A stretch of DNA of 43,980 bases, taken from positions 1-43,980 of the IMG/VR virus record IMGVR_UViG_3300029826_000008, one strand, 5' to 3'. Of this stretch, positions 28,404 through 43,980 are shown one piece after another; position 1 is the stretch's first letter; each line of letters opens with the position of its first letter. The position numbers were made by a program, and so were the translations under genes. The notes below the pieces were generated by a model that was not told the origin of the DNA, searched no databases, and worked only from the letters and a program-made list of their open reading frames with translations. The DNA comes from a virus.

Positions 28404-29194
28404 TTAGGAAATAGCGGAATACCCCTGGTGGGCCTTGCGATTGTTCACCACCATGTTCCCGTCCCAATAAATCTTCATCGTCTTGTCTTCCGGCGAATCG
28501 GGAATCTTCTCCCACTTGGACCGCATGAAGTAGCCCTTCTGGTGAATCGCAAACCCGATATGCTTGCTGTTGATGAAAAACGCATGGGAAGCAGGACAAT
28601 AGTCGTCAGGGAAAATCTCGGCCCCCTCAAACCACAGCCCGGTAAAACCAGCCTTCGCAGTCTCCTTGCCGTCAGTGAAACGCTGCTGCGCCTGAAGAAT
28701 GTCGGCAATCGTGTTCCAGTTGGTTTCCGTGGTGACAATCAGGTCCGGCTTGCCATTGGCACCATCACGAATCTTGGCCGCACTCCGCGCAGTACGAAGC
28801 ACGTTCAGACTCAGCGCCGTAGTCGTGGAAGTCATCTTGCCCTCCCACGGCTTGGTCCCGTCAGCCGCAACAAGATCGTCCTCGGCAATCCCGCCATAAG
28901 CGAGCGTCGAAGTCTCGTTGCAACACGCACGAAGACCAGTCAAACGATTGGAAGTCGAACCAGTGGAATCGTCATAAATGGAATCGGCCAACAGCTTAGT
29001 CAAAGACTTCTGTGCAGAGTTCAACCGCTGAGTAACAAGCTGCACTTCAGCGTACTCGCCAGAGTTCTTCAACTGGTCGATACGATAAACGGTGGCCGAA
29101 GAATATGCGTGAATCCAAGGGAACACCGCAGCGTTGATGTTTTCACGATCATCCGAAGAAACCGTATCGCCCTTCTCGTAAACAGTGTTTGTTA
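28404..29194 (-). CDS. Major capsid protein, exon 2
   Basis: Encodes the C-terminal 263 codons of the major capsid protein, interrupted by a group I intron. Key blocks: RIDQLKNSGEYAEVQLVTQR, LTGLRACCNETSTLAYGGIA, AADGTKPWEGK, KAGFTGLWFEGAEIFPDDYC, FFINSKHIGFAIHQKGYFMR and KIYWDGNMVVNNRKAH, all typical of an HK97-fold phage capsid family. A methionine-initiated frame would begin at GTG 29126, but the frame is open and capsid-like further upstream (KGDTVSSDDRENINAA). I place the 3' splice site after base 29195, where exon 1 phase 1 joins in frame. Spliced product: exon 1 (30131-30329) plus this exon, 990 bases, 329 residues. Confidence 0.85.
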
Positions 29195-30130
29195 CCGTAG
29201 AGCCGTTTAAACTCTACTTCTGCATGTTTCCATGCAGCTCAGACTATATCATCACGCTTCCTGCTAAAGCGTGTCGGGCGCTCGTGCTTTGGGCCTTGGC
29301 AATATTGGCTGGGTATTTATACTTAAGGTCGATTTTATACTCCATCGTTGGGATAATATATGGCTTAACTATGTTCACAAATTTTATAGAATTTTTTGAA
29401 TTGCAAATAAGCCTATGTTTCCCCTTTGATGGAGATATCCTAAAATCGATATCAAAATTTTCCTTAAAAAAATCCCTGCAATATGCAGCTTCAACCATAG
29501 AGGTATAAGTATTAAGATAAATTTCTCTTGAATGGATATAACCATTTTTTTTATGTAGAGCCAAGCTCCCATCATCCATATACCAAATAGCAATACCTTC
29601 AGGGGTAAGCCTGTTTAAAACTTTTTTAGATATAAATTTTCCCCCGCCGGGATACATAAACTTCCTTAAAGACCGAAAATATGGATGACCGAAACTTGCC
29701 GAAACTCCTGGATATCCATTATTATTTATTTCATGAATATTTATCTTTTTACCAAAAATCTTATTTAACAGTTCTGTTTTGTGGGCTAAATATTCTTTTT
29801 GCCTTGCACAGTGCCTCATTATCAAAGAAACACTTTTATCGTTTACGCTTGGCTTTCTTAAATGCCCGTCCCCCAAAACCATCCCTGTCAAAATTGATAC
29901 CGTCCTCTTGGTTTTTAGCATCTTGAACCTTTCTGGTTCAGCTTTAAGCAAAGACCAAAGTAGTCGTTGAACCTTCCCCTTATTGGGGCTTGGCTGCTGA
30001 TTGCCCTCGGCTTTACGTTAGGGGTTCCCAGCAATTCACCCAATTTTGTAGCATGAATTTGCATGAGGTCTTTCTTGCAGTTGTTTTTGTTCTCAGGCAT
30101 TTTCATACTGGAGCTTAAACACGAGGGTCC
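29195..30130 (-). ncRNA. Group I self-splicing intron in MCP gene
   Basis: 936-base intron, minus strand. The conserved core is at 30045-29961: on the RNA, GCCGAGGGCAAUCAGCAGCC, then a run ending GGUUCAACGACUA (P4-P6 and the 5' strand of P7). The matching 3' strand UAUAGUC is at 29248-29242, after the endonuclease ORF. P1 candidate: exon GGAGU at 30135-30131 pairs with GCUCC at 30114-30110, giving a U-G pair at the 5' splice site. Near the 3' end are two perfect hairpins: CUGCAUG-GAAA-CAUGCAG (29237-29220) and GUAGAG/CUCUAC (29217-29197). The intron then ends in G at 29195. GUGUUU in the P1 loop can pair AAACAC in exon 2 (possible P10). Confidence 0.85.
29244..29921 (-). CDS. Intron-encoded LAGLIDADG homing endonuclease
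   Basis: About 225 residues from ATG 29921 (AGAAAGG upstream; a TTG at 29951 lies inside the intron core). Two LAGLIDADG motifs in one chain: ILTGMVLGDGHLRK near the N-terminus and LTPEGIAIWYMDDGSLAL in the middle, so it should act as a monomer with pseudo-twofold symmetry, cutting intron-less capsid genes at the insertion site. The ORF sits between the two strands of P7, i.e. in the P8-side loop, and its stop UAG is part of the P7 3' strand GAUAUAGUC. Much AT-richer than the exons, as expected for a mobile element. Confidence 0.9.
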   Translation of the reverse strand: MLKTKRTVSILTGMVLGDGHLRKPSVNDKSVSLIMRHCARQKEYLAHKTELLNKIFGKKINIHEINNNGYPGVSASFGHPYFRSLRKFMYPGGGKFISKKVLNRLTPEGIAIWYMDDGSLALHKKNGYIHSREIYLNTYTSMVEAAYCRDFFKENFDIDFRISPSKGKHRLICNSKNSIKFVNIVKPYIIPTMEYKIDLKYKYPANIAKAQSTSARHALAGSVMI

Positions 30131-30329
30131 ACTCCGCAATCTGGCCGTCATATTCGAGCGGGATGCGAATCTGCATACCACCCGGAGGGCGCTCCCAAAT
30201 CCCCTTCTGCTGCTTCATCAAGTAATTCAGGAGGAAAGAAGTGTCGAAATAGATGTCTACGGCAGAACCACCGTCCAACATGAAATAATCTGTGGTGATG
30301 GACTCAAGCTCCTCAAACGTAAGTGCCAT
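30131..30329 (-). CDS. Major capsid protein, exon 1
   Basis: 66 codons plus one base of the major capsid gene: MALTFEELESITTDYF, GSAVDIYFDTSFLLNYLM, then QIRIPLEYDGQIAE. ATG 30329 has AGGAGG nine bases upstream. The unspliced frame would run to 30093 and give only 78 residues, the last 12 or so (after IAE) encoded by intron. The predicted 5' splice site lies after the T of GGAGT (30131). Joining to exon 2 gives 'EYDGQIAE-LTNTVYEKGDTVSS', with a spacing close to that of related capsid proteins as I recall them. Exact boundaries need RNA evidence. Confidence 0.8.
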
Positions 30330-35627: not shown

Positions 35628-35866
35628 TATCGCTTCCTCGGCTCATTCAAATCGCCAATCGTTGACACCCTCGGTTCCTCGGCTTCGGCCATCGCTTCCT
35701 CAAACGGGTCGCCGCCAGGGTCCGCTTGAGAACCTTGGTTCCTTGTTGGCGTTGCAATGGAACTCATCATGGGAAGCTCCCTTGAGTTTCGCCCCATCCA
35801 ATACCCAAGAAGAATGCACCCGACCGCCGATAGCAAAATACTAAAATACGGTATCAACCAAATCAT
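35627..35866 (-). CDS. Small single-span membrane protein
   Basis: 79 residues from ATG 35866 (GGAGG seven bases upstream), inside the end of the terminase gene (26-base overlap). One clear hydrophobic segment IWLIPYFSILLSAVGCILLG (residues 2-21), then a polar Pro/Glu-rich tail (PGGDPFEEAMAEAEEPRVS), so an N-out or N-in single-pass protein with a cytoplasmic or periplasmic tail. An inner-membrane protein inside the packaging operon is unusual; function unknown. A longer frame to 35929 has a weaker start. Confidence 0.6.
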   Translation of the reverse strand: MIWLIPYFSILLSAVGCILLGYWMGRNSRELPMMSSIATPTRNQGSQADPGGDPFEEAMAEAEEPRVSTIGDLNEPRKR

Positions 35867-38579
35867 CCCCGTCCTCCCCGTCAAGTAACTCCATCTCAAC
35901 CCCTGCATGATAACCCGCATAGTCCTCAAACGGGTCGCCGCCCATCGCCTTCAACCTCTCTAATCGTAAATCCGTAGGACTCAACTTCTCGTTCGGCATC
36001 TTCAACTCTACTGGCCGTGACATGAACACCAGACTGACCGCATCGTAGATATGATCCTCGGCTTTTCCATCCACATCTTCGGGGTCTGTCTGACTCTGCT
36101 GCAACTGCGGGATCGTTCTGATAAACTGTGGGCAAGTCTCAAAGACTTGGAACATAGGCTGGTCGCCGTTCTCAGGCACTCTCAACCGCTCATGGAACTG
36201 CTTGATCTTCTGATTCCTCGTCGCGTCCCCCGGGTAGCCGTTGATACCGTACATCGCAAACACTTCATCCGTACTCGGCCCCTGCCCACCACCCATGTAC
36301 GAAGGCTTCCGGCTGAAACAGTCAGGCGATAGAATGTACTCGACGGGCCGAATCGGCACCCCGCAATCAAAACCGTTGACCACCATCCCGCCGGTTTCCG
36401 TTCTCAGCCCAATCAATTTCTCGTGCTTGATAATCCCCTCGGCTATCTGACTATCGCTCATTCTCAGCCCGGTATCCGGCACACCCGTAAAACCGTACCA
36501 CTCGGAAAACAGATAAAGTCTCCCGTCTGCGTCCGTGTAAAACCAGTTGCATGAAAACGGTTTCCCAAAACCCCAATCGAATCCGAAATAGATAGGCGCA
36601 TGGGCAGGAACTTCATGCTTCGGACAAACATGGTGCTTCCGAGAAAAGTTGAACATCTGCCCTACGAATATCTCCCAATCCCCGTCAAGATAAGCTGACC
36701 TGTACGGCTCGGGCATGGCCTTCACACGATTGATATATCCGGGGTCGCGCTCCATCAGAATAGGATTGTCCTCAAGCAAAGCCGGAATGTACGCCCGAAC
36801 CATCCCACCTTCCTCGTCAGGTGCCTTCCTCAACCCGTAATAAATCGTATGCCCCAAACGCCTATGCGGATGCTCGTAAACAGGCCCGTACAACTCCGGC
36901 TCCCGCATTCGCTTGACGGCTTCATCTGTGTCGATTATGCAGAAATCTACGAACATCGACTTACAGAACTCATGCCCCGGCCCTCCTGGGTTGCTACCAC
37001 AAATAATCCCCGGCACCTTACCGATATATTGCTCTGGAATCTCAAGCGCACAACGAACACGGTTTCTCAGGTAGGTGTATTGGAACTCCGTAAAGGTCGA
37101 TAACTCGTCCACGACAAGAAGGTGTATCTCGGCACCATGATAACCCATAATGTCTTGCTCATACTGAGCATGGCAGAAATGAATAATCGACCCATTACTT
37201 AGAACATACCGCCGCTTCCGGTCAGAATATTCCCCGTACTTGTTCCCCCATTCCATTAGAATAGGTAAGATATGGTTTCTTTCCAACTCTGGATAAATAC
37301 GGCGAAACAGATAGACTTGCAGCTTCGGGATACGCATCGCCCATATTAGGGATTCGTAGCGGATAGCGTGGCTGTTGTGGGTGACTATGAAATCGTCGGT
37401 AATGTAAAGGCCATTTGGATTGTCAACGGTTATGCACTGCGCTTCGGCATCCCTTGAGTATTTAATCCCAACAACACGCCTACAAAGTTTTGACACGCCT
37501 CCGTTAAATTCATCAACACACAACGCAATCTTTCTTGGCAATGAGAATATCTCGGAGTCTTTTGGGGTTTGAATATGCAGAACATATGCAAGCTGCCCGT
37601 TTTTCTTTTCGCCTGAAGTGTCCGTGAAGGTAGGATTTTTTGTGGAAATTGTTGCTCGGCCACCAATGCTTTGAATAATCCACCTTACATCCTCTGCCAA
37701 CTGCTTGCTTATAGTGGTGTATGAACACCATCCAGACCTATGATCTACCGTCCCATCAGTATCCATGAGGCCCCGAAGAATCTCCATGCGGTCTTCCAGT
37801 GGGGCGACCTTATAGCTCCTTGGAATAAACTTCGTAGCTGCCCCACACCCCATCAACTTAAGACCCTCCAAGGCTGCAACTGTCTCACCGCCGACAATAC
37901 TGTACGAAATATCCCGGCTCAAACTGTTTACACGATCATCCCCAACACCCTTTACTCTGGCGGCAATATAAGGATCACCCGTTGCAAAATTTACTGTACG
38001 CTGAGTAATCGAACCATCCCCAAGTATCACCCCAAGTGTGTATGGGTCTATCGTTCGACTGGCTCTGTTCCCGGCATGGCCCGTTGGGGGCGTAAAAACA
38101 ACGGGTTTTGTCATTGGAATTAAGGGCCAATACGGTCTACGCCCAGCGGCTTTCTCGGCAATCTGTTTGTCAACATACGCTTTTAACTCGGCGGTTGTAG
38201 ACACCTTAAACTCTGGCAAATGTTCATGCTCTTTTACCTTAACAAACCGTCTACGGCTTGACATTTTCCATTGCCAAAGGTGGTCTAAGGTGCATTCAGT
38301 AGAAGACCCATCAGCGAAAGATACCCTGTAAAGCGGCTGGACTCCTTGTGGGTGGACTTGTATAACCCTTGCGATAGACCCATCTGGATTGCTTACTTGA
38401 GAGCCAACCTTCATGTCTCTCATTTGCTTTGGGCCAAACGGAGTCATTACGATTGAATCTAAGCTCCCCGCTTTCCCAGGACCGGCGGAGCCCCCAAACA
38501 AAATTTCATTGGCAGGACACTCACTTAGCAATAACTGCTTCGGCTGCGGCTTGTAGTCTATCTCTAAGGTTTCAGCCAA
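35841..38579 (-). CDS. Terminase large subunit, intein-containing
   Basis: 912 codons; 546 residues after removal of the 366-residue intein. The packaging ATPase: adenine-binding KPQPKQ (10-15), P-loop GGSAGPGK interrupted by the intein and continued SHAIRYES, Walker B LLVVDE in 'HLLVVDELSTF', and coupling motif GSNPGG. The C-terminal RNase H-like nuclease has FGFDWGFGKP, FDCGVP and DHIYDAVS acidic residues. It packages DNA into the procapsid through the portal. Start is TTG 38579, two bases after the upstream stop; no better start exists before the conserved KPQPKQ. The 3' end overlaps the next gene by 26 bases. Confidence 0.93.
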   Translation of the reverse strand: MAETLEIDYKPQPKQLLLSECPANEILFGGSAGPGKAGSLDSIVMTPFGPKQMRDMKVGSQVSNPDGSIARVIQVHPQGVQPLYRVSFADGSSTECTLDHLWQWKMSSRRRFVKVKEHEHLPEFKVSTTAELKAYVDKQIAEKAAGRRPYWPLIPMTKPVVFTPPTGHAGNRASRTIDPYTLGVILGDGSITQRTVNFATGDPYIAARVKGVGDDRVNSLSRDISYSIVGGETVAALEGLKLMGCGAATKFIPRSYKVAPLEDRMEILRGLMDTDGTVDHRSGWCSYTTISKQLAEDVRWIIQSIGGRATISTKNPTFTDTSGEKKNGQLAYVLHIQTPKDSEIFSLPRKIALCVDEFNGGVSKLCRRVVGIKYSRDAEAQCITVDNPNGLYITDDFIVTHNSHAIRYESLIWAMRIPKLQVYLFRRIYPELERNHILPILMEWGNKYGEYSDRKRRYVLSNGSIIHFCHAQYEQDIMGYHGAEIHLLVVDELSTFTEFQYTYLRNRVRCALEIPEQYIGKVPGIICGSNPGGPGHEFCKSMFVDFCIIDTDEAVKRMREPELYGPVYEHPHRRLGHTIYYGLRKAPDEEGGMVRAYIPALLEDNPILMERDPGYINRVKAMPEPYRSAYLDGDWEIFVGQMFNFSRKHHVCPKHEVPAHAPIYFGFDWGFGKPFSCNWFYTDADGRLYLFSEWYGFTGVPDTGLRMSDSQIAEGIIKHEKLIGLRTETGGMVVNGFDCGVPIRPVEYILSPDCFSRKPSYMGGGQGPSTDEVFAMYGINGYPGDATRNQKIKQFHERLRVPENGDQPMFQVFETCPQFIRTIPQLQQSQTDPEDVDGKAEDHIYDAVSLVFMSRPVELKMPNEKLSPTDLRLERLKAMGGDPFEDYAGYHAGVEMELLDGEDGDDLVDTVF
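37374..38471 (-). mobile_element. LAGLIDADG intein in terminase P-loop, probable class 3
   Basis: 366 residues (37-402 of the terminase frame) inserted between the P-loop Lys and Ser. N-terminal block A 'AGSLDSIVMTPFG' starts with Ala instead of Cys/Ser; block B is 'TECTLDHLWQW'. Blocks C and E are LAGLIDADG motifs 'LGVILGDGSITQ' and 'LRGLMDTDGTVD'. The end is 'QCITVDNPNGLYITDDFIVT' then HN, followed by extein Ser. Ala1, Trp after the block-B His, Cys in block F and Thr before HN match the W-C-T set of class 3 inteins, known from mycobacteriophage Bethlehem terminase, in which the block-F Cys starts splicing. In-frame removal restores an intact GPGKS P-loop. Confidence 0.9.
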
Positions 38580-41118: not shown

Positions 41119-41294
41119 CTACCCTCCCCAATTATCCCCCCGACGCCGGGAATATGTTTCACTGGCGGGCCGGACGCTAACCCGGCTTCCAGGCGCAAAA
41201 TCCTCATCAGCCTATACACTGGACTTGGATGAGCAATGCGTGTCTGCGACTTTCCACGCCGCCGCCAGCTCCCATAGCAGGGGGGCGCTATGGG
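41119..41294 (-). other. Gap with palindrome after methyltransferase gene
   Basis: 176 bases without a gene. Immediately after the methyltransferase stop is a perfect 8-bp inverted repeat CCCATAGC/GCTATGGG with an 8-base loop (41272-41295), but no U-tract follows, so it is not a classic terminator. A second hairpin (GCCGG/CCGGC) lies near 41165-41186. A weak TTGCTC ... TATAGG pair near 41212-41238 has too short a spacer to call a promoter. Confidence 0.45.
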
Positions 41295-43448
41295 CTAATT
41301 AAACAATTCCATCTGCCCAACACCAACCCTCGCCTTGGCTATCTCGTAAAACTCAACCTCGCGCTCTATCCCAATAAAATCAAACCCCTCAAGTAACGCC
41401 GCCTTGCCCGTAGAACCGGACCCCATAAACGGGTCCAATACAATTCCACCTGGTGGAGTAACCAGTCGGCACAAATACCGCATTAGCGAAGTTGGCTTCA
41501 CCGTAGGATGATTGTTCCCCTTGCCCCGGTCGGCCTTGGATGCCTTGGCGCAATAAAAGAAGCGGGCGGCAGAACCTCCATTGTCGTTATGACCGTATGT
41601 AACGTGCGGTAGGTCTTTACCCTTCGCAACACTTTTGAATTCTCCGTTGTTCCTGGCGTTTGCCTTGCTTGCCCCCGTCACCGGAAACAACGCAACCACT
41701 TCAGGGCTTCCATCGTGAATTAGGTTGGCTGGGAAACGACCAGTTCGCTCTGGCGTAACCATGTTTGTCCGCTCAAAGGTTCCTATTTTTGATTGCCCGG
41801 CTCGTAGCTCTGGCAATACATCCGTCCCAACCCGGCACCCATCAATGTTCAACCCACCACACCCATGCTTCAAAACATTCTGCGCTACCGTCCCCTCCAA
41901 AGGCTTCCGGGCTAAACAGATCGGCTCATGGGCGGGCTTCAGGGCAGTACCAAACCCTTCCCATTGGCGTGCCGCTTCGGTGGCAGGAGCGGTAATGCTT
42001 CCACACAACTCATGCGATGGGCGCAACCACCCATCATTCCCACCATTCGCATGAGGGCGAAAACTGCGCCCATAATTTCCTATCGTGTCCCCCTCAACCC
42101 CCGCAGCCTTGTCTATCGCCTTGCTCACATCCAAACTTTTGGGGAAGCCAGAATTGCCGGTCACGAATACTTTGCCGTTGCGCCGCGCCACAAATGCGCC
42201 TGAGGGGACACGGATACACCAAACCTTACCAACGTAATGGATAGGTTCTATCCGCGCCAGATCGGTTCTGGTGTGCCTCGATGCTCGTACAGTTTGTGAT
42301 CTCGATTGCTCGCAAACAGGATTAGGTTCTGAATTGAATTGTCTTGCGGATTGTGGTTTTTGTGATGAACAGTTTCTGTTCGTTTCAGAGGCCGCCCTAT
42401 CGCTTGTGCAACAAAAAGACGGTGTTCCATTACATATCCATCTTTCCTCGCCATCTGTAAAAACTCCACCGGACAACGGACATACTTTATCGGCTTGTAG
42501 TTCCCGTGCTTGCGGAAGTATGTCACCCCGCCCTTCCATGCCGGGTTTCTCTCGCCGGTCATCTTGGTTTTGCAGGATTCCCGGCTTTTGTCTGTCCAAC
42601 CGGCACGCCCCTTGCTCCCGTGCCTCGCCCACTCTTTCCCCCTCATCTTCCCGTTGCACTCCCTTGAACAAAACGGGGTCTTGACCCTCCTCAACCAAGC
42701 ATCCGGCTTCCATACTTTTTTGCCACACACGGGGCACACTATCACGCGCCCCTTGCGCTCGGATAACGGAACCACAACTCTCTTCGGCTTTGGGAAACAC
42801 TCCCTGCGACAATACTTGTTTCTCGACGCCTGCTCTTTCGTTTGGCAAGGGAAGATCGTTGAGCAAGTCTGGCAAACCTTCCAAAATGGGTACACTCGCT
42901 TTGCGTTCCCGTGCAACTTCTTCAGCAAGCTCGAACTTAAACGCTCCGCCTCGTTCAACAAGGCAGCGATGGTTTCTTGAGACAATTTGGTCTGTGTGAT
43001 CCGAGAAAATTCGGAAGGCGGTATCGTCGTATTCGTACACAACAAAATCTTGGATTGGTTGCCATTGATATTCATCATGCTCAGAATCATAACATAATGC
43101 GCGACCTTTGTCAATGGCTCTATGGTAAGGCTCCCACCGCCCGTCAATTAATAATTCAGTGTCCTCACTCAAACATCCGTACACCCACTCGACCATGTCC
43201 CTGATCTCAAACCCGGCATCCTCTATGTTCACAACCATCCTGTGATACGTCCGCGTCCCGCCAAACGCCAACATAAATCCACCCGGCTTCAATACACCAA
43301 ACACAGCCCGCCAAATATCAACAGAAGAAATATCGTAGTCCCACTTCTTCCCCATAAAACGCAACCCATACGGCGGGTCCGTAACAACCGAATCAACCAA
43401 ACCAACCCCAGGTAGAATGTCTAAGCAGTCGCCACAGTAGAGCCGCAA
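41295..43448 (-). CDS. Beta-class DNA methyltransferase, intein-containing
   Basis: 717 codons; 376 residues after removal of the 341-residue intein. Motif IV VTDPPYGLRF (about residues 22-31) precedes motif I LDPFMGSGSTGKAAL near the C-terminus, the order of beta-class N6-adenine/N4-cytosine methyltransferases. It would methylate phage DNA, protecting against or mimicking host restriction. The intein interrupts a conserved stretch, EWVYG-SGFPKSLDVSKAID, between the two motifs. Start is TTG 43448 with GGGGG upstream. It is the first gene of the minus-strand unit, behind a sigma70-like promoter. Confidence 0.88.
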   Translation of the reverse strand: MRLYCGDCLDILPGVGLVDSVVTDPPYGLRFMGKKWDYDISSVDIWRAVFGVLKPGGFMLAFGGTRTYHRMVVNIEDAGFEIRDMVEWVYGCLSEDTELLIDGRWEPYHRAIDKGRALCYDSEHDEYQWQPIQDFVVYEYDDTAFRIFSDHTDQIVSRNHRCLVERGGAFKFELAEEVARERKASVPILEGLPDLLNDLPLPNERAGVEKQVLSQGVFPKAEESCGSVIRAQGARDSVPRVWQKSMEAGCLVEEGQDPVLFKGVQREDEGERVGEAREQGACRLDRQKPGILQNQDDRREKPGMEGRGDILPQARELQADKVCPLSGGVFTDGEERWICNGTPSFCCTSDRAASETNRNCSSQKPQSARQFNSEPNPVCEQSRSQTVRASRHTRTDLARIEPIHYVGKVWCIRVPSGAFVARRNGKVFVTGNSGFPKSLDVSKAIDKAAGVEGDTIGNYGRSFRPHANGGNDGWLRPSHELCGSITAPATEAARQWEGFGTALKPAHEPICLARKPLEGTVAQNVLKHGCGGLNIDGCRVGTDVLPELRAGQSKIGTFERTNMVTPERTGRFPANLIHDGSPEVVALFPVTGASKANARNNGEFKSVAKGKDLPHVTYGHNDNGGSAARFFYCAKASKADRGKGNNHPTVKPTSLMRYLCRLVTPPGGIVLDPFMGSGSTGKAALLEGFDFIGIEREVEFYEIAKARVGVGQMELFN
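42153..43175 (-). mobile_element. Methyltransferase intein with out-of-frame insert
   Basis: 341 residues (92-432). Block A starts CLSEDTELLIDG, block B has 'IFSDHTDQIVSRNHRCLVER', and the N-half ends near 'ASVPIL' (about residue 189, base 42880). The C-half is 'PIHYVGKVWCIRVPSGAF' and 'VARRNGKVFVTGN', followed by extein Ser: class 1 with Cys1, and GN instead of the usual HN. Between the halves (about 42250-42880) this frame stays open for about 210 codons but gives a polar, domain-less sequence, because the DNA there encodes an HNH endonuclease in another frame. Removal restores EWVYGSGFPK. Confidence 0.88.
42248..42895 (-). CDS. HNH endonuclease nested out of frame in intein
   Basis: Open frame 43147-42248 on the same strand, shifted by one base from the methyltransferase-intein frame. 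Convincing sequence starts about 42895 (GTG, codon 85 of the open frame): a zinc finger CQTC ... CRREC, a second CPVCGKKVWKPDAW ... CSREC, the 'GERNPAWKGG' block frequent in homing enzymes, and an HNH domain 'MEHRLFVAQAIGRPLKR', 'TVHHKNHNPQDNSIQNLILF', 'NRDHKLYEH'. ATGs at 43078/43075 are other possible starts but lie over the intein's N-half coding. Stop at 42248 is just before block F. The gene thus fills exactly the endonuclease slot of an intein, out of frame. Translation start or frameshift mechanism unknown. Confidence 0.8.
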   Translation of the reverse strand: MYPFWKVCQTCSTIFPCQTKEQASRNKYCRRECFPKPKRVVVPLSERKGRVIVCPVCGKKVWKPDAWLRRVKTPFCSRECNGKMRGKEWARHGSKGRAGWTDKSRESCKTKMTGERNPAWKGGVTYFRKHGNYKPIKYVRCPVEFLQMARKDGYVMEHRLFVAQAIGRPLKRTETVHHKNHNPQDNSIQNLILFASNRDHKLYEHRGTPEPIWRG

Positions 43449-43482
43449 TCAAACCCCCATATTCGTCTTTCAAATACACCCC

Positions 43483-43530
43483 CTTCTACCACAAAAACTA
43501 CCACCCTGTCAAGAACTACTTGTTCCAATT
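43483..43530 (-). promoter_or_regulatory. Sigma70-like promoter with operator-like site
   Basis: Minus strand: perfect -35 TTGACA (43512-43507), 18-base spacer, -10 TAGAAG (43488-43483; 4 of 6), 35 bases before the methyltransferase TTG start. Directly upstream of the -35 box is GGAACAAGTAGTTC (about 43524-43511), a one-mismatch relative of the CGAACAASTTGT arm of the three conserved motifs. Suggests shared control by one DNA-binding protein. Confidence 0.5.
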
Positions 43531-43980
43531 ACCCCAAGCCACCACCCTAAACCACCACAATTCCATTTTCCTTAGCAATTTCCGTACAGTATAAGAAGTT
43601 TTCAGCAATAACAGGCTTCTACGCATACCCGATTTTCCCGAAATCAATTTCCCGAACAATTCCGGTTCTCTATTAAAAAGATTCCCGGAGAAAATCCCTA
43701 ATTTTTGAAAATCCCAACCGCTACCTCCCCTATCGAGACTCCTACTTGCATATAAAAAGAGTACTTATTTTTCTGGAAAAAGGGACGGGATAAAAGGTTT
43801 TCCATGAATTTAACTGTTTTTGGGCTGGAGGGGGCATAAAAGGTTTTGCTCGGAAATCCCTGTTTTTGGGCTCGGGGGCAACTACTACCCTACTACCGAG
43901 TGCGCCGCCGGAAGGGTACCCACCCACCCCGTACCAGGGGGCAAGGCACCGATGATCCCCGCCGGTACAGGTTCGCGGGG
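43531..43980. other. 450-base control region, no gene seen
   Basis: No supported gene on either strand; short frames have no ribosome-binding site. Contains C-rich then AT-rich stretches (TATAAAAAG near 43750-43758), a two-copy 46-bp direct repeat (43788-43879) and a GC-rich end. Since minus-strand genes begin to its left, it may be a divergent promoter or origin region towards genes beyond the window. Confidence 0.5.
43788..43879. repeat. 46-bp direct repeat, two copies
   Basis: Copies at 43788-43833 and 43834-43879. Both contain ATAAAAGGTTTT (43790, 43836) and CTGTTTTTGGGCT (43814, 43860) at exactly the same offset of 46 bases, with variable bases between. The constant spacing of two conserved blocks suggests two adjacent protein-binding sites or iterons. 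Confidence 0.8.

Follow-up and report, generated by a model that had tools for sequence, protein, structure and literature searches.

The window, a virus record of 43,980 bases, carries on its minus strand a DNA methyltransferase (MTase) gene in which one stretch of DNA is read in two frames: the MTase (host) frame encodes the splicing domain of an intein, and an open reading frame one base ahead (+1) has the features of an HNH endonuclease. We consider it highly probable that a splicing protein and a homing endonuclease share the same DNA here, as parts of a mobile intein. HNH-based scans of viral contigs and genomes yielded about 90 related nested loci, some of them near-copies, from metagenomic phages, MAGs and the complete chromosome of Cupriavidus necator. 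The HNH lies exactly in the +1 frame and the MTase frame is stop-free across the HNH core in 90/90 of these loci, which share kinship and are not independent events. The dual-frame arrangement was thus confirmed as real and not a sequencing error.

In the mechanism that we propose, the host frame would provide an unsplit Hint intein with a long, stop-free and disordered middle, and protein splicing would restore the MTase. The +1 frame would encode a separate HNH protein with two zinc fingers, reaching from about 40 codons before the conserved core to just before block F and probably produced by internal translation initiation. This enzyme would cut intein-less MTase genes at or near WVYG|SGFPKS, and repair of the cut would copy the whole intein in.

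An intein and an HNH endonuclease in two frames

The MTase ORF runs through its 717 codons from end to end with no interruption. Its intein corresponds to C92 to N432 of the ORF and comprises 341 residues, leaving an MTase of 376 residues after removal. Among 46-47 intein alleles, no variation occurs at C1, H69 (the block B His), C320 (block F), T339, G340 or N341; the +1 residue is Ser in 49/49 relatives listed. The penultimate His of block G is absent and invariant Gly340 stands there; since some inteins do without this His, it is not strictly defining. When we fetched 80 MTases with a C-extein, the exteins of 74 abutted at WVYG|SGFPKS with a gap of 0, an exact empty site. Using hmmsearch, an intein-family profile matched the AceL NrdHF-1-1 intein (E 1.6e-8). 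AlphaFold2 assigned confidence values of mostly 82-98 to residues 1-110 and 291-341 and mostly <50 to residues 112-290, and every Foldseek match at E<=0.001 was an intein or a related hedgehog Hint domain. Alignment and model together support an unsplit Hint intein in the host frame, and as its filler is stop-free, the MTase could be restored by splicing.

Read in the +1 frame, the central DNA of the intein gave an AlphaFold2 model with a mean pLDDT of 90.6, compared with about 40 for the filler in the host frame, suggesting that the folded protein is encoded in the +1 frame and that the host frame supplies a splicing domain whose insert is disordered. The HNH ORF scored 29.1 bits against HNH_3 (PF13392), above the gathering cut-off of 24.8 (E 7.6e-7), and matched PHROG HNH families with E values down to 5.7e-15. 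Two zinc fingers of the pattern C-x2-C...C-x3-C are present. In an alignment of 70 sequences the catalytic residues H182, N195 and H205 are invariant and H183 is conserved in at least 90%, and the zinc and catalytic residues are kept at overall identities of 40-60%. A fold search with the HNH model against the PDB returned weak matches only, I-HmuI among them, and hmmsearch found no solved HNH relative. The ORF is predicted to be a complete HNH endonuclease, with cleavage and homing as its likely activities.

These results bear out much of the preliminary description, which had placed an HNH one base out of frame inside an unsplit intein: the +1 frame and the PF13392 and Hint matches from profile searches of both frames agree with it, the lengths that it gave for the intein and the spliced MTase coincide with ours, and the intein frame, which it had read as open across the HNH, is stop-free here, as is the MTase frame across the HNH core in all the related loci.

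Table. Features of the dual-coded MTase locus (positions in the window) and further +2-frame ORFs (positions in the respective loci)
Feature	Positions	Strand	Basis
DNA methyltransferase (MTase) ORF, 717 aa, carries the intein	41295..43448	-	PF01555 N6_N4_Mtase, E 2.7e-28
N-extein, C-terminal end ...VEWVYG	43176..43448	-	sequence; gap 0 to SGFPKS in 74/80 MTases
Intein C1...N341, then Ser+1	42153..43175	-	invariant splice residues and Hint fold
Hint N-half, intein residues 1-110, block B SRNH within	42846..43175	-	pLDDT mostly 88-98; AceL NrdHF-1-1 match
Filler in the host frame, residues 112-290 of the intein, disordered by prediction	42306..42842	-	pLDDT about 36-52; stop-free
Hint C-half containing blocks F and G, ...VWCIRVPSGAFVARRNGKVFVTGN	42153..42305	-	pLDDT 82-97
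HNH ORF, +1 frame, mechanical ORF from TTG 43147	42248..43147	-	stop TAG 42250..42248
Conserved HNH endonuclease core (predicted), 220 aa	42251..42910	-	70-sequence alignment; AlphaFold2 mean pLDDT 90.6
HNH zinc finger 1 (CQTC...CRREC)	42797..42874	-	sequence, alignment, AlphaFold2 model
HNH zinc finger 2 (CPVC...CSREC)	42656..42736	-	Cys columns at least 90% conserved, C85 invariant
HNH_3 (PF13392) catalytic motif ...VHHKNHNPQDN...	42314..42424	-	Pfam match; catalytic columns conserved in alignment
Probable HNH start region	43028..43078	-	candidates ATG 43078, ATG 43075, TTG 43045, TTG 43042
+2-frame ORFs with zinc-finger or HNH features	L007:3863-4582, L008:5360-5818, L021:4451-4879, L028:4061-4696		
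+2-frame ORFs with zinc-finger or HNH features, continued	L053:1853-2326, L074:2497-2952, L174:2871-3254		

Stop avoidance and the extent of the overlap

For a +1 HNH, the sole source of host-frame stops is a T at the end of a codon that precedes one beginning with AA, AG or GA, so that synonymous choice alone can avoid stops; this would explain why the HNH occupies the +1 frame. In the window, wobble T occurs in 0/65 of these stop-risk contexts compared with 37/154 elsewhere. Of 20,000 synonymous recodings of the HNH core with the codon usage of the window, none was free of host-frame stops, which averaged 16.3, and shuffling of synonymous codons within the HNH gene gave a mean of 9.5 stops, with a zero fraction of 0.0. 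The same avoidance was observed in the related loci, both in those in which an intein surrounds the HNH (0/2,046 vs 1,819/5,671 elsewhere, 32%) and in a class without intein (0/998 vs 715/2,348, 30%), so that the two classes pooled show wobble T in 0/3,044 stop-risk contexts vs about 31% elsewhere; conservation of both frames in homologues, which the preliminary description had proposed as a check, is observed. As a control, in free-standing HNH homologues 18-60% of these contexts have T, and the matching frame contains 2-32 stops. The third frame of the nested loci usually contains 4 to 20 stops. In contrast to the nested forms, where an HNH of the same family lies antisense inside an MTase (L036:3001-3597), the host frame contains 14 stops. 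The family offers a clear example of dual coding, with both frames under selection.

Within the filler, selection appears to maintain an open frame rather than any particular sequence. Host-frame identity between distant pairs was 0.229, compared with 0.218 after synonymous codons had been permuted in a way that preserved the stop context, and we rejected selection on the filler amino acids because this small excess is explicable by shared descent. Two antisense ORFs on the plus strand over the dual-coded stretch (42271-42684, 137 codons; 42510-42980, 156 codons) are probably a by-product of stop avoidance.

To locate the upstream limit of the HNH gene, we counted HNH-frame stops in 44 full-length alleles and derived the expected numbers from host-synonymous recoding. 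Between -120 and 0 from the HNH core, 2 stops were observed and 57 expected, compared with 73 observed and 67 expected between -240 and -120. Avoidance thus sets in about 120 nt upstream of the core (about 43030 in the window), within the Hint N-half, which indicates that the two genes overlap into the N-terminal half of the splicing domain; HNH coding seems to start about 40 codons before the core, with both frames constrained there. At the other end, the HNH stop codon (42250..42248) lies about 30 nt ahead of block F. Of the two junctions originally proposed as sharp, the 5' one, at 42880, is not, as avoidance begins at about 43030.

In the region of the probable HNH start, other loci often have ATG at the place that reads ACG (43030) in the window; about half of the relatives share this ATG, which tends toward a better Shine-Dalgarno sequence where present. 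There was no single conserved start codon, ATG at this commonest place being found 21 times vs 17.6 expected, without clear enrichment. None of the window's own candidates (TTG 43045/43042, ATG 43078/43075) has a strong Shine-Dalgarno sequence. Many loci, though, combine an ATG at the start place with an HNH-frame stop only a few codons upstream, with a strong Shine-Dalgarno sequence in L010, L023, L033 and L040, and in alleles without intein the ATG often follows straight after an HNH-frame stop (e.g., L048, L065, L066), a pattern that favours internal initiation. The alternative, an intein-HNH fusion made by programmed +1 ribosomal frameshifting or transcriptional slippage, would account for the overlap of the HNH frame with the Hint N-half in every full-length allele and for a window devoid of a strong internal ribosome-binding site. 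We nevertheless regard it as unlikely, given the stops and Shine-Dalgarno sequences just described and the abrupt onset of avoidance near -120; in addition, inspection of the overlap, which was unsystematic, brought no common slip motif to our notice. From these sequence patterns, an internal translation start is the more probable of the two routes offered in the earlier proposal, the other being frameshifting.

Related loci and the probable mobility of the element

HNH identity across independent assemblies is about 40-76%. The genome of an uncultured 484-kb phage (LR756508.1) shows the same arrangement with 45% HNH identity, and the complete chromosome of Cupriavidus necator UYPR2.512 carries the form without intein. 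Members of the HNH family in this latter class sit directly in the MTase, again in the +1 frame, at a place about 20 codons further downstream than the intein site that corresponds to a variable segment in intein-less MTases. On the HNH tree, many branches of which are weakly supported, alleles with and without intein interchange at least 5 times. For some pairs of alleles, the similarity of the inteins exceeds that of the exteins by 19-30 points (69% vs 38% for L053/L056), as expected for a mobile element. The dual-coded arrangement is stable and widespread. The preliminary description had seen in it an intermediate between known designs; an unsplit, dual-coded intein is indeed supported, but the notion of an evolutionary intermediate is not, since the arrangement is widespread and the HNH family also occurs without intein. 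In L026 (2733-3773) a nonsense codon interrupts the HNH frame and the intein frame is open, perhaps an endonuclease in decay. A Candidatus Liptonbacteria contig (L172:3650-3905) has a 76% identical HNH and lacks the intein C-half and the C-extein, possibly through an assembly break or a rearrangement.

We considered three further explanations of the locus. Two compensating indels, from sequencing or assembly, could conceal an ordinary intein with its HNH in frame, as could be recognised from homologues. No homologue among the 90 loci has an in-frame HNH, assemblies made independently of one another, a complete bacterial chromosome among them, show the +1 arrangement again, and stops are avoided at wobble sites; we found no point in favour of such an error, which the homologues refute and to which we attach next to no probability. 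It is very improbable that the HNH is a dead passenger, with selection acting on the intein frame only or on the MTase only. The interrupted HNH frame of L026 beneath an open host frame speaks for this explanation, but it is the one clear interruption in 90 loci, the catalytic and zinc residues are retained despite 40-60% identity, and HNH-frame stops are suppressed upstream of the core. HNH genes are common in group I introns, and the phage has an intron-like element in its own capsid gene, so that a self-splicing RNA intron might carry the HNH and the open host frame might be incidental. This appears extremely improbable: there was no Rfam match in 41200..43700 even at E<=1, the Hint halves are in frame and the empty site is exact at the protein level, and avoidance of host-frame stops would be purposeless if the RNA were removed.

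Known systems, other hidden endonucleases and other elements of the phage

The usual view is that homing endonucleases reach coding sequence in one of three ways: with an intron, as a domain in frame with an intein, or by splitting the gene. The HNH family described here shows an additional entry route, in which a mobile gene sits inside another gene without breaking it and leaves as its trace the wobble bases that avoid host-frame stops. Annotation overlooks such hidden endonucleases. The design resembles the ShiLan domain, which Arsenault, Gosselin and Gogarten (2025, PMC11855218) described as an HNH lying out of frame in the DNA methylases of mycobacteriophages, with no intein or intron found there. 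Both are HNHs with zinc fingers hidden in a phage MTase whose frame stays open, and both are patchily distributed. In contrast, the ShiLan HNH occupies the third (+2) frame at an EPIVVARKP site, as our own analysis also showed for Mantra, Bipolar and Murica, whereas the HNH studied here lies in the +1 frame within a Hint intein or an MTase loop. The principle of part of our finding is thus already covered by that work. The literature that we searched contained no out-of-frame endonuclease in a Hint intein, no fixed +1 frame with a wobble signature and no link between forms with and without intein. Priority is uncertain, as a preprint by Gosselin et al. that the ShiLan paper cites, which deals with non-canonical inteins of actinobacteriophages (bioRxiv 2025.01.02.630785), might describe such a case.

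The DNA-methylase inteins of the mycobacteriophages Lilac, Dorothy, ShiLan and Willsammy (PMC9957025) occupy the corresponding site, WLYG|SGFPKS, and have a clearly related C-half (...GEVWCVKVPSGAFVARREGKVFITGN). Unlike the intein of the window, they have a middle in the intein frame that is LAGLIDADG-like, a reading made by eye with a weak Pfam match in one of three (Willsammy, E 0.086); this middle had no PDB match, and no hidden HNH was found in these inteins. Judged from these sequences, one splicing module seems to have been paired with different endonuclease arrangements. How endonuclease-bearing inteins arose thus becomes testable, because at one site some alleles contain an in-frame domain, others a hidden HNH and others nothing. 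Neither of the established designs applies to our locus: a bifunctional intein with an in-frame endonuclease was rejected because all 90 loci have their HNH in the +1 frame, and a fractured gene with a split intein because the host gene is one open ORF, not two. Fractured genes, which Dassa et al. (2009; cited in PMC10448857) reportedly described as split inteins around a free-standing endonuclease, likewise have a separate endonuclease gene in the intein locus, but here that gene overlaps a single uninterrupted host ORF. The AceL NrdHF split intein (PDB 6zgq) was the best match to the Hint part in sequence and fold and shares the block F Cys; unlike the intein of the window, it is split, belongs to class 3 and has no overlapping endonuclease.

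Further out-of-frame ORFs were noticed in the +2 frame inside the same open MTase genes (Table). Those of L021, L028, L053 and L174 are unrelated HNH ORFs of HNH_3 types and that of L007 is an unrelated one of the endonuclease VII/HNH type; L008 and L028 have theirs besides the intein HNH. A different MTase family on a Cloacimonadota contig (L182:1746-2264) has a +1 hidden HNH near its C-terminus. The site-specific DNA-methyltransferase of Escherichia phage BUCT618 (OM735461.1; L189:796-1398) contains a hidden +2-frame HNH of HNH_2/HNH type with three zinc-finger-like motifs, which offers a laboratory-tractable relative in a cultured E. coli phage. We lean towards the view that frame-transparent homing endonuclease genes form a general class, stop-free in the frame of the gene that they invade and located either inside an intein, which is spliced out, or in a tolerant loop, where splicing is not involved. 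The intein form would then be a third way of joining intein and endonuclease, besides in-frame fusion and split inteins, and several unrelated HNH families appear to have entered phage DNA methyltransferases in this way.

Elsewhere in the window, the ORF of the terminase large subunit (35841-38579, minus strand) contains an in-frame intein (...GPGKAGSLDS...DDFIVTHNS...) with an apparently endonuclease-like in-frame middle, so that together with the MTase intein the phage apparently holds two inteins of different design. A group I intron-like element at 29220-30043 on the minus strand interrupts the major capsid gene, which comprises 28404-29126 and an exon further upstream, near 30096-30329. 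The element matches RF00028 below the gathering score (E 6e-10 and 1.7e-7) and contains a LAGLIDADG ORF (29244-29951).
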